Shown one piece after another: positions 9,501 to 13,624 of a DNA stretch of 64,000 nucleotides; position 1 is the stretch's first letter, and every line of letters begins with the position of its first letter. The translations under genes and the position numbers were made by a program. The stretch spans positions 26,226,946 through 26,290,945 of the forward strand of contig OV121084.1 of assembly GCA_921293015.1 (NCBI GenBank). Reading direction: 5' to 3'. The notes beneath the pieces are model-generated. The model saw nothing but the letters and a program-made list of their open reading frames with translations. It was not told the DNA's origin and ran no database searches. The DNA comes from Phorcus lineatus (Eukaryota; Mollusca; Gastropoda; Trochida; Trochidae).

Positions 9501-10653
9501 TATTTTTCTTGAATGTTAGTTGTTTTCCTTGTTTAATTTTTTTCTTTTGAAGTAACAGCTTTTTGAATGTAAAATTAAAAGTTGTAAATGTATTGAGTAT
9601 TTATAGATTTTGCTTTCAATGTTTGAGTTTATGAGTGTTTTATCTACTAATAGTTGTAGATATCCTCCAAATGAAACTTAGAAATGAAATATAGGAGAGT
9701 ATGTGGACGTATTGCTACATTGAGATTTCCAACTCAACACTTGTTAGTCTTGTTTGATAGATTATTTGAAGTCCAAAAAAATATCCCCACCAATCCATGC
9801 TGACCATTGTTTTCATTAACAAGACTCCATTTTATCTGGAAGGATTCAGCTGTTAATGAATGAGTATTTTAACTCTTTCCCTGATCGATGAAAAAGAGTT
9901 ACTATTGCCACCCAGCTTAATCTTGTGATTAGAAAAGCAAAAAGAGGGAGAGGTTCTCGGGTAATCGTTTAAATACCCTTATGAAAGGGACAAACTTTCG
10001 GTTGGTTGAATGTAAAAGTAGGCCGAGAATAAAAACAAATTACTTTTAAAAAAATAATAGAAAAACTATAGTTGTTGCACAAACTAAAATTGTTAATTCT
10101 TATTTTCTACTGGCAGACATGTTTTCACCTGCTATTCGGCAACTAGAGAAATTAGTTATTTAATTGGATATGTAGGTTAATCATAAACCCACTGAGGTAA
10201 TTTAGAAGGGAGATGGTTGAATGTATGTCCGTTTGTCCACCTCCCAACAGTCCACTAACAGGGTAGGTGGCAGCTCCCAATGTTGTTGATGTTGTTGTTG
10301 ATGTTGATGTTGTTGCTGTCCCAGTCCCATATTAATGCTTGCTGGGCATAGCGCTTGCTCCATCTCTTTGCTCCGCTTGGTCTACTTTATTTGCCTAATT
10401 TTGGCATGTCCTCCCTCAGGTGCCTCCGCCATTCAAGCCGCAAGTCACATCGGAGACAGACACTCGCTACTTTGACGAAACCTTCACAGTTGAGTCTGTT
10501 GCGCTAACCCCGCCAGGAGCGACGTCAAGCCGGTTGGAACCGGTGGCAGAGGAAATGGATACCATGCCGTACTTTGAGCAGTTTTCGTATCACGGCAGTC
10601 GGAGTAGCCTTGCCAGCAGTCGTATGAGCTTCGAAACAACATGGACAACGTAG
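506..10653 (+). CDS. AKT: AKT/RAC serine-threonine protein kinase (protein kinase B), multi-exon gene, isoform with tail A; 5' end missing
   Basis: Akt is the PI3K-pathway AGC kinase: its PH domain binds PIP3 at the plasma membrane, and PDK1 and mTORC2 then activate it. I joined eleven exons with GT-AG borders and continuous phase: 506-558, 2104-2229, 2985-3096, 3474-3567, 4091-4222, 4503-4568, 4942-5133, 5335-5463, 6177-6391, 6970-7057 and 10420-10653. They give 479 residues plus stop, against 480 in human AKT1, so only the start Met and a few residues are missing. Visible motifs are the PH start (KEGYLWKRG), glycine loop (GKGTFGKV), catalytic Lys (AIKILKK, 4190-4192), HRD variant YRDLK, DFG, activation-loop [12 protein letters not shown] (Thr codon 5428-5430), turn motif TPP and hydrophobic motif FEQFSY (Ser codon 10585-10587). 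A second terminal exon at 13385-13624 can replace the last one. Family assignment is very secure; exact exon edges are manual calls. Confidence 0.96.
1690..1990 (+). mobile_element. tRNA-derived SINE, copy 1 (sense, in AKT intron)
   Basis: The 5' part is tRNA-like: a degenerate A box (gggatagcgcaatggt) and B box (ggttcgaatcctg). The body matches the copy at 62727-63039 almost end to end, including the blocks gggtgtaatgctacactgaa, gtaccacccatggt and aagtgaaatac, and the terminal cacctcacctc. Flanks resemble a decayed target duplication (aattggg / agttggg). It sits in the intron between the first two visible AKT coding exons. Confidence 0.88.
2104..2229 (+). CDS. AKT: AKT exon, PH domain beta1-beta4
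   Basis: It encodes [19 protein letters not shown] and onward to DFTVK, including the basic residues (RNWRKR) that in Akt contact the inositol phosphate head group. Acceptor is ttttcag, donor is gtaagg. It is entered with one carried base (g|ga, Gly) and leaves with one (g|at, Asp). Confidence 0.95.
2985..3096 (+). CDS. AKT: AKT exon, PH domain core ([16 protein letters not shown])
   Basis: It encodes [18 protein letters not shown] followed by [19 protein letters not shown], nearly collinear with the human PH segment. Acceptor is gttacag and donor is gtcagt. It leaves with two bases of an Arg codon. Confidence 0.96.
3474..3567 (+). CDS. AKT: AKT exon, PH C-terminal helix and linker
   Basis: It encodes [15 protein letters not shown], the PH C-terminal helix, then [16 protein letters not shown], the linker. 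Acceptor is ctctccag and donor is gtactc. The linker to the kinase domain is about half the vertebrate length. No equivalent of human linker Ser124/Ser129 is obvious. Confidence 0.93.
4091..4222 (+). CDS. AKT: AKT exon, kinase N-lobe with glycine loop and catalytic lysine
   Basis: It encodes [20 protein letters not shown] then [14 protein letters not shown]. The ATP-binding Lys is codon 4190-4192. The acceptor is ttatttgcag. The donor is gttggt, a weak form that recurs elsewhere in this window. Confidence 0.96.
4503..4568 (+). CDS. AKT: AKT exon, kinase alphaC helix
   Basis: A 22-codon exon encoding [14 protein letters not shown] and TKHPFLT. The Glu in TENRVL is the alphaC Glu that pairs with the catalytic Lys. 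Acceptor is gggcag, donor is gtgagt, phase 0 on both sides. Confidence 0.95.
4942..5133 (+). CDS. AKT: AKT exon, hinge to catalytic loop
   Basis: It encodes [32 protein letters not shown] and the catalytic loop start NIVYRDLK. The Asp of YRDLK is the catalytic base. The acceptor is ttcgtag and the donor is gtaagt. Confidence 0.96.
5335..5463 (+). CDS. AKT: AKT exon, DFG and activation loop
   Basis: It encodes [19 protein letters not shown] and the activation segment [15 protein letters not shown]. The Thr before FCGTPE (5428-5430) is the PDK1 site equivalent to human Thr308. The acceptor is tctcag and the donor is gtggga. Confidence 0.97.
5556..5810 (-). mobile_element. tRNA-derived SINE, copy 2 (antisense, decayed, in AKT intron)
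   Basis: Read on the minus strand it starts gcagtggttagcgcatt (A box region), continues with a decayed B box (gtgtcagaatccta), then gtcaggtttgggt, attcagggca, tgtctccct and gaaatactcttg, in the same order as the full copy at 62727. It is more diverged than copies 1 and 4, so it is probably older. Both ends are approximate. Confidence 0.7.
6177..6391 (+). CDS. AKT: AKT exon, kinase C-lobe
   Basis: It encodes [39 protein letters not shown] and ends at LLAKNPKER. This is the C-lobe including alphaF and alphaG. Acceptor is tctgcag and donor is gtaaaa. It leaves two bases of the last Arg codon. Confidence 0.97.
6970..7057 (+). CDS. AKT: AKT exon, end of kinase domain; shared splice donor for both tails
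   Basis: It encodes [20 protein letters not shown] and WAELVEKK, the conserved end of the AGC kinase core. Acceptor is cttcatag and donor is gtagca. It ends in phase 0, so either terminal exon (10420 or 13385) can follow in frame. Confidence 0.96.
7060..7275 (+). repeat. CTGT-rich microsatellite/minisatellite beside the AKT kinase-end donor
   Basis: A tctg-rich tract starts two bases after the exon donor and expands into a roughly 20-bp unit, cagtctactgtccatctgg with variants, repeated across about 7130-7270. It keeps a frame open in the intron, but the resulting low-complexity Cys/Ser/Leu sequence is not a domain. Confidence 0.85.
7276..10419 (+). other. AKT intron before tail A, no further exon seen
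   Basis: AT-rich intron. It holds a GATA-like stretch (about 9101-9137), a diverged inverted repeat pair (about 8482-8540 and 8895-8945), and an impure TTG/ATG trinucleotide repeat (10279-10318) about 100 bp before the tail A acceptor. No other coding signal was recognised. Confidence 0.6.
10420..10653 (+). CDS. AKT: AKT terminal exon, tail A (canonical AGC C-tail, Thr turn motif)
   Basis: A 77-residue tail plus stop, after acceptor ctccctcag. It begins [20 protein letters not shown], almost identical to the vertebrate Akt tail, and carries the turn motif LTPPGA (Thr codon 10507-10509) and the hydrophobic motif YFEQFSYHG (Ser codon 10585-10587, equivalent to human Ser473, the mTORC2 site). 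After the hydrophobic motif the protein runs on for about 20 more residues rich in Ser, Arg and Thr, longer than the human end (SASGTA). A (TTG/ATG) microsatellite lies just upstream at about 10279-10318. Confidence 0.96.
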
Positions 10654-13384: not shown

Positions 13385-13624
13385 ATGGAGCCTCCATGGA
13401 GACCAGATGTGAAGAGTGCATGGGACACTAAATACATCCCAGAGGAGTTTGCACAGGAGCCGATGGGCGCGTCGCCAGGACGACCAGGGAGCGGTAACCA
13501 CCTTGAGAGCATTACGGAGGACAGCGAGTTGCCGTACTTTGAGCAGTTTTCTTATCATGGGAGTAGGAACAGCTTTGGGCATTACCTCAGTGCCTCAGCT
13601 CAAGCTACCAATGAACACTTTTGA
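13385..13624 (+). CDS. AKT: AKT alternative terminal exon, tail B (diverged copy, Ser-Pro in place of TPP)
   Basis: A 79-residue tail plus stop, after acceptor ctattgcag. It is phase 0, so it can follow exon 6970-7057 in place of tail A. It aligns along its length with tail A: EPPWRPDV for [17 protein letters not shown] for DTRYFDETF, and the shared block [11 protein letters not shown] (Ser codon 13550-13552). The region of the TPP turn motif reads GASPGRPG, with a Ser-Pro (Ser codon 13472-13474). It lies 2.7 kb downstream of tail A. The similarity and preserved acceptor, frame and stop suggest a functional duplicated last exon rather than a relic. Expression is not shown by sequence alone. 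Confidence 0.88.
   Translation: MEPPWRPDVKSAWDTKYIPEEFAQEPMGASPGRPGSGNHLESITEDSELPYFEQFSYHGSRNSFGHYLSASAQATNEHF

Follow-up and report, generated by a model that had tools for sequence, protein, structure and literature searches.

Akt is a central kinase of growth and metabolism and has been studied mainly through its three vertebrate genes. A vertebrate has several Akt proteins (Akt1, Akt2 and Akt3) that are the products of separate genes, whereas at the locus described here diversity would arise from one gene and would lie in the tail only. The closest described system is PKC beta I/II (PRKCB), in which, as in this Akt gene, one AGC kinase gene carries two alternative final exons with a turn motif and a hydrophobic motif in both. 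The homology between the PKC beta I and II tails has been given as 45% (PMC7703976), compared with 43% identity between the two Akt tails, A and B. The systems differ in that the present locus encodes a different kinase, with a PH domain and a place in the PI3K pathway.

Alternative 3' ends made by splicing are also known for Akt itself, in the human AKT1, AKT2-13a and AKT3 variants. As described in one account, the alternative C-termini of human AKT1-3 have lost the hydrophobic motif, and AKT2-13a has only its last 26 residues replaced, by an exon reported there not to be conserved (PMC7703976); an AKT3 splice form that lacks Ser472 has also been described (PMC8306188). The original prediction had contrasted vertebrates, with Akt diversity from separate genes, with an animal that would obtain it from one; that contrast is softened by the human C-terminal variants. 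Unlike those variants, the gene described here has its whole tail replaced, keeps YFEQFSY intact in both forms and has a second tail that recurs across phyla. A literature search (titles and the beginnings of abstracts, open-licence papers) returned no description of alternative Akt tails in molluscs or other lophotrochozoans. The architecture is known from PKC beta I/II, and these comparisons suggest that an Akt tail swap that keeps the hydrophobic motif may be new.

Two terminal exons in the Akt gene of Phorcus lineatus

The window, a stretch of 64,000 nucleotides from the genome of the gastropod Phorcus lineatus (C7:26226946-26290945), carries on its forward strand Akt exons that span positions 506 to 13624, tails included. 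Ten exons between 506 and 7057, identified by splice sites and frame, have gt-ag borders and join into a single open Akt frame of 402 codons that encodes a PH domain, a linker and a kinase domain. These exons encode the start of the PH domain (506..558, the first exon within the window), its continuation (2104..2229 and 2985..3096), its end together with the linker (3474..3567), the start of the kinase domain with GKGTFGKV (4091..4222), further kinase domain segments (4503..4568 and, with YRDLK, 4942..5133), the DFG motif and activation loop (5335..5463) and the kinase C-lobe (6177..6391), followed by the last common exon (6970..7057), whose 3' border reads AAAAAG/gtagcatg (donor 7057/7058, phase 0). 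The start codon belongs to an exon farther upstream, outside the window; a simple pattern search for this exon 1 across the 8.9 kb that precede the window found no convincing candidate. The spliced frame of the window contains the features expected of an Akt/PKB member, namely the PH domain, the AGC kinase domain and the activation-loop motif, and the homologues P0001 and P0012 have Pfam PH and Pkinase matches. Its nearest neighbor in a tree of kinase cores is Haliotis asinina, which shares 377 of the 402 core residues (93.8% identity).

Downstream of the common donor lie two complete alternative Akt tail exons, at exactly the coordinates predicted and 2.73 kb apart. Tail A (10420..10653) encodes a canonical Akt F-tail of 77 residues with the turn motif LTPP and the hydrophobic motif YFEQFSY, and tail B (13385..13624) encodes a W-tail of 79 residues with PPW...DTKYIPEEF, the S-P turn motif ASPG and again YFEQFSY. 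Each is preceded by its own acceptor (...cctccctcag before 10420 and ...ggctattgcag before 13385), is in phase 0 and closes with its own stop codon (at 10653 and 13624), so that the splice anatomy agrees in every respect with the original prediction. The donor at 7057/7058 is compatible in phase and frame with either exon, which is the PKC beta type of layout: two tail exons, one donor, the same phase and a hydrophobic motif in both. The proposal that a single gene, through a choice of last exon, gives two isoforms on one kinase core is supported.

The two tails are identical at 32 of 75 aligned positions (43%). They have in common a stretch of 12 residues around the hydrophobic motif, over which the exons differ at 4 of 36 bases, all synonymous. 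Pfam Pkinase_C scores tail A at 37.9 bits and tail B at 14.4, below the cut-off of 20.9, which an Octopus W-tail protein narrowly exceeds at 22.0. The best PDB match of tail A is Akt1 (E 1.9e-13); tail B matches 14 PDB sequences (E up to 10), every one of them Akt1 or Akt2, the best at E 1.1e-4. When tail B was searched against the P. lineatus genome (E up to 1, three candidates scored), the sole match besides itself was tail A (E 2.1e-10, 44%), and a tblastn search of phage records gave no match, as expected for an animal exon. The Akt-only PDB matches, the 32/75 alignment and the own-genome match to tail A indicate that tail B is a duplicated and diverged Akt tail.

Hexamer matches point to possible poly(A) signals for both transcripts. 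For tail A these are ATTAAA at 11733..11738 and AATAAA at 12739..12744, the latter upstream of the tail B acceptor, and for tail B two AATAAA hexamers (14370 and 14403) within 14370..14408. The donor at 7057 would be spliced to tail A, with the transcript ending at a poly(A) site ahead of tail B, or alternatively would skip tail A and join tail B. Directly after the common donor lies a TGT/CTG-rich stretch (7058..7300, with 19/38-base units at 7132-7263) that may be a site for splicing regulators. The TGT density of the window peaks here (25 in 243 bases), a value reached by 1 of 6375 overlapping windows, at the same place, and a TGTTGT-type repeat occurs upstream of tail A at 10280-10319. UGU-binding factors such as CELF proteins would be candidates for such regulation. 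The CTGT/TGTC-rich minisatellite that adjoins the donor (7064-7270, 19/38-base unit) may serve splicing control or be neutral. Of the 12 acceptors, that of tail B is the poorest in pyrimidines (9/17; the others have 10-16), and its use may for this reason be minor.

Elsewhere in the window, an Akt intron (~1690-1990) contains what by eye is a tRNA-like short interspersed element with box A- and B-like words; ARAGORN called no tRNA in the window. On the minus strand, a 140-residue open reading frame at 22603-23025 resembles by eye the helix-turn-helix region of a Tc1-type transposase, and a 190-residue open frame at 25015-25587 has a signal-peptide-like start by eye and is possibly an exon of a secreted protein.

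Two classes of Akt tail in molluscs, annelids and nemerteans

A lack of tail B in related species would have counted against the original prediction; this is contradicted, since the tail occurs in other molluscs and, beyond molluscs, in annelids and nemerteans. Tail B aligns over 97% of its length with a Haliotis asinina Akt isoform at 87% identity (E 1.9e-36), a match well beyond chance. Against 5.8 billion proteins, the tail B region gave five matches (E up to 10; eight candidates), all of them W-tails (Haliotis asinina, Bradybaena similaris, Littorina saxatilis, Octopus sinensis and one without a species name), and the Octopus tail as query gave nine proteins among 143 candidates, itself included, again all W-tails, adding the chiton Liolophura sinensis, Mytilus californianus and others. 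The union of these searches with the best 120 of 2243 proteins found with the full-length A isoform as query comprises 121 proteins, a set that is biased toward window-like sequences and in which, because of clustering at 90%, one isoform may be masked by another.

These 121 Akt proteins, sorted by the motif [KAT]YIP, fall into 31 with a W-tail ([PT]PW...YIP) and 90 with an F-tail (PPF/Y and no YIP), with no intermediates. The classes are unchanged, and free of mixtures, when the initial residues are used instead (PPW in 30 and TPW in one vs PPF/Y in 90). The S/T-P turn motif is present in 31/31 W-tails and 90/90 F-tails, and the hydrophobic motif is found by pattern in 31/31 and 89/90, respectively, the exception being P0112, whose motif is one residue shorter. 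Fourteen of the W-tails carry a species name, one is from the library GHVO and 16 are without a species name. The named ones are from ten molluscs (including Haliotis, Littorina, Octopus, the chiton Liolophura and Mytilus), two annelids (Owenia and Arenicola) and two nemerteans (Tubulanus and Lineus), and seven of the 14 are numbered isoform models in databases. Named F-tails include those of molluscs, Lingula, arthropods, hemichordates, nematodes and fish. No named species has both tails among the 121 proteins (90% clusters, with the bias toward window-like sequences), and the sole pair from the same source is that of GHVO. For Nucella lapillus there are two Akt entries with F-tails (P0020 and P0024), of which P0024 has a strongly diverged tail that is perhaps a further tail exon or gene copy.

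Counted over 32 W and 91 F tails, window included, the classes differ at specific positions. Position 5 is Trp in 32/32 W tails vs Phe in 89 or Tyr in 2 of 91 F tails. Near the start, PPFKPQ is changed to PPW[KR]PD in tail B. At the active-site tether, Ile-Pro in 32/32 W tails (this being the sorting rule) stands against Phe in 91/91 F tails followed by Asp in 83 or Glu in 8; the residue after the second tether Phe is Ala in 27/32 vs Thr in 91/91; and another position is Lys in 30/32 vs Arg in 85/91. The distal ends are also class-specific, with YLS in most W tails. Common to both classes in all 32 W and 91 F tails are DT, the second tether Phe and both Phe residues of the hydrophobic motif, whose Ser is present in 32/32 W tails and in 88/91 F tails, with Thr in the other 3. 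Within the W class, W5, E21, F22, F52, F55 and S56 are invariant in 32/32.

Mean pairwise identities in the proximal part (the first 31 residues in W), the linker, the hydrophobic motif and the distal part are 70.4, 39.5, 85.8 and 45.8% among molluscan W tails (n=11, without P0004) and 82.2, 31.8, 92.0 and 64.8% among molluscan F tails (n=14, without P0019, P0027 and the diverged Nucella P0024), and 45.6, 25.6, 86.1 and 18.3% between the two classes in molluscs. These values indicate that both classes are constrained, the W tails less tightly, and that the hydrophobic motif is shared. Several molluscan W tails end in E-x-F (ELF, EMF, EHF, EIF, ETF) and the two named annelid W tails do not; this ending resembles a class III PDZ ligand.

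Relation between the two tails and origin of tail B

Whether W- and F-tails belong to one gene was addressed in a tree of 61 tail-less cores, consisting of the window, all 31 W proteins and 29 hand-chosen from the 90 F proteins. The two kinds of protein are intermingled, with species rather than tails grouping together: there are 16 label changes, at least 11 of them forced by starred branches, and none of 200 bootstrap trees has a single label change. For example, Littorina saxatilis (W) stands by L. littorea (F), and Mercenaria (W) by Ruditapes (F). In a tree of 123 tails, window's included, the 32 W tails lie on one side of a single branch (SH-aLRT 99, from a quick search on only 82 columns). 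The assembled GHVO transcripts P0007 (W) and P0036 (F) have cores that are identical at 410/410 residues and tails that are 47% identical. The GHVO transcriptome was made from Ancora sagittata (PMC10304595). This gregarine parasitizes the gut of a polychaete, Capitella capitata (PMC5452951), and for this reason the Akt transcripts are most likely the worm's own. Because the cores interleave by species and the GHVO pair joins an identical core to two tails, the W- and F-tails are most likely those of one ancient gene with alternative tails. The support for both isoforms from one gene comes from relatives, namely the GHVO pair and the numbered database isoforms; we infer that P. lineatus uses both tails and, from the proteins of other species, that the tandem exon layout is probably present there as well.

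Were the two classes instead paralogous genes, with the window holding a fused or partial second copy, one would point to the two Nucella entries, which show that Akt copies may occur, and to the mild clustering of the tail label on the core tree (16 changes vs a shuffled mean of 20.2, with 16/500 shuffles as low). This is highly unlikely and was rejected in view of the species-wise interleaving, the GHVO pair, the seven plus-strand open reading frames of at least 50 residues listed between the tails, which match no Pfam family (E up to 1), and the own-genome search, which among three candidates scored gave only tail B itself and tail A. Likewise, tail B could be imagined as a decaying duplicate exon that is rarely or never spliced in, given its pyrimidine-poor acceptor, its sub-threshold Pfam score and its diverged turn motif (ASPG). 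Decay is contradicted, however, by W tails in three phyla that share many invariant positions (YIP, also 32/32, being itself the sorting rule) and by the proximal and hydrophobic-motif identities that the 11 molluscan W tails hold; we consider it very improbable and reject it. An origin by exon shuffling from another AGC kinase is scarcely credible, since tail B, despite its departure from the usual AGC F-D, has only Akt1 or Akt2 among its 14 PDB matches (E up to 10) and aligns with tail A, and it too was rejected. We therefore favor, with a probability of roughly 85%, the reading that the choice of last exon in one Akt gene yields two kinases, tail B having probably arisen when an Akt tail exon was duplicated in an ancestor of molluscs, annelids and nemerteans, and having since been maintained by selection.

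Predicted consequences of the tail exchange

The original prediction emphasized the mTORC2 sites of the tail, an emphasis that is not upheld: the hydrophobic-motif Ser (FSY) and the S/T-P turn motif are kept in both tails, and the swap thus neither removes nor adds mTORC2 sites. As judged from the aligned tails, what stands out is the replacement of F-D by I-P in the active-site tether, together with a different distal C-terminus. In AGC kinases the tether FDX(X)Y/F has been described as part of the ATP site (PMC3415842). Tail A has this motif (FDETF), whereas in tail B (YIPEEF) the first F and the D are replaced and the last F is kept. The Ile-Pro of tail B stands in the place of Akt1 Phe438-Asp439. 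F-D is kept in each of the eight Pkinase_C matches that the P. lineatus genome gave, including tail A, in a search that favors canonical tails. Tail B also differs in this respect from both tails of a PKC-like locus in the same genome, which keep NFD. That locus (C2:35087000-35096900, minus strand) has tail exons at 2464-2727 and 8026-8220, ~5.3 kb apart, both with NFD and with FSY/FSF motifs, and kinase-like exons upstream (locus L014), as in vertebrate PRKCB.

Under the favored reading of one gene with two tails, both tails would still be phosphorylated at the turn and hydrophobic motifs and would fold back on the N-lobe. Given the Ile-Pro tether, the changed start and the different C-terminal end, the B form is expected to close differently over ATP, which would change its ATP affinity, its rate or its response to inhibitors, and it may have other binding partners. 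The B isoform would accordingly be expected to differ in nucleotide handling and distal partners and not in whether mTORC2 could phosphorylate it. The predicted difference in regulation between the isoforms is plausible. AlphaFold models of all 31 W proteins (set A1, P0001 first) and 31 of the 90 F proteins (set A2, P0012 first) had mean pLDDT values of 62.0 and 60.7, respectively, with values <50 over most of both tails, and we therefore make no structural claim from them.

The catalytic prediction is weakened by PRK1, in which mutation of the equivalent Phe (F910A) is reported to leave activity, ATP Km and inhibitor potency not significantly changed (PMC4128815). This near wild-type behavior, the reported kinetics of PKC beta I and II, which are practically identical (PMC7703976), and the phosphorylation motifs kept in both Akt tails would all fit tails that are functionally equivalent, the choice between them serving mainly to supply different 3'UTRs and mRNA control while the protein change is tolerated. 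We regard such equivalence as unlikely, though worth serious consideration, because class-specific residues are held in both tails (Trp vs Phe at position 5 and the distal YLS), which mere tolerance would not hold.

On the reading that last-exon choice makes two kinases from one gene, lophotrochozoans would have had a second, splice-made Akt since before molluscs, annelids and nemerteans split, with the adenine-pocket Phe-Asp of the tether changed to Ile-Pro, and the two forms would differ in closure of the nucleotide pocket, drug sensitivity and partners; this fuller proposal is tentative, with the odds somewhat against it. A deeply conserved exon swap in which the phosphorylation motifs are kept and the tether is changed would be a natural experiment on the parts of the AGC tail. 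Domain annotation can overlook the W-tail, as tail B falls below the Pfam cut-off, and work on a single Akt isoform in molluscs and annelids (e.g., with antibodies, knock-downs or inhibitors) may see or miss one of the two forms.
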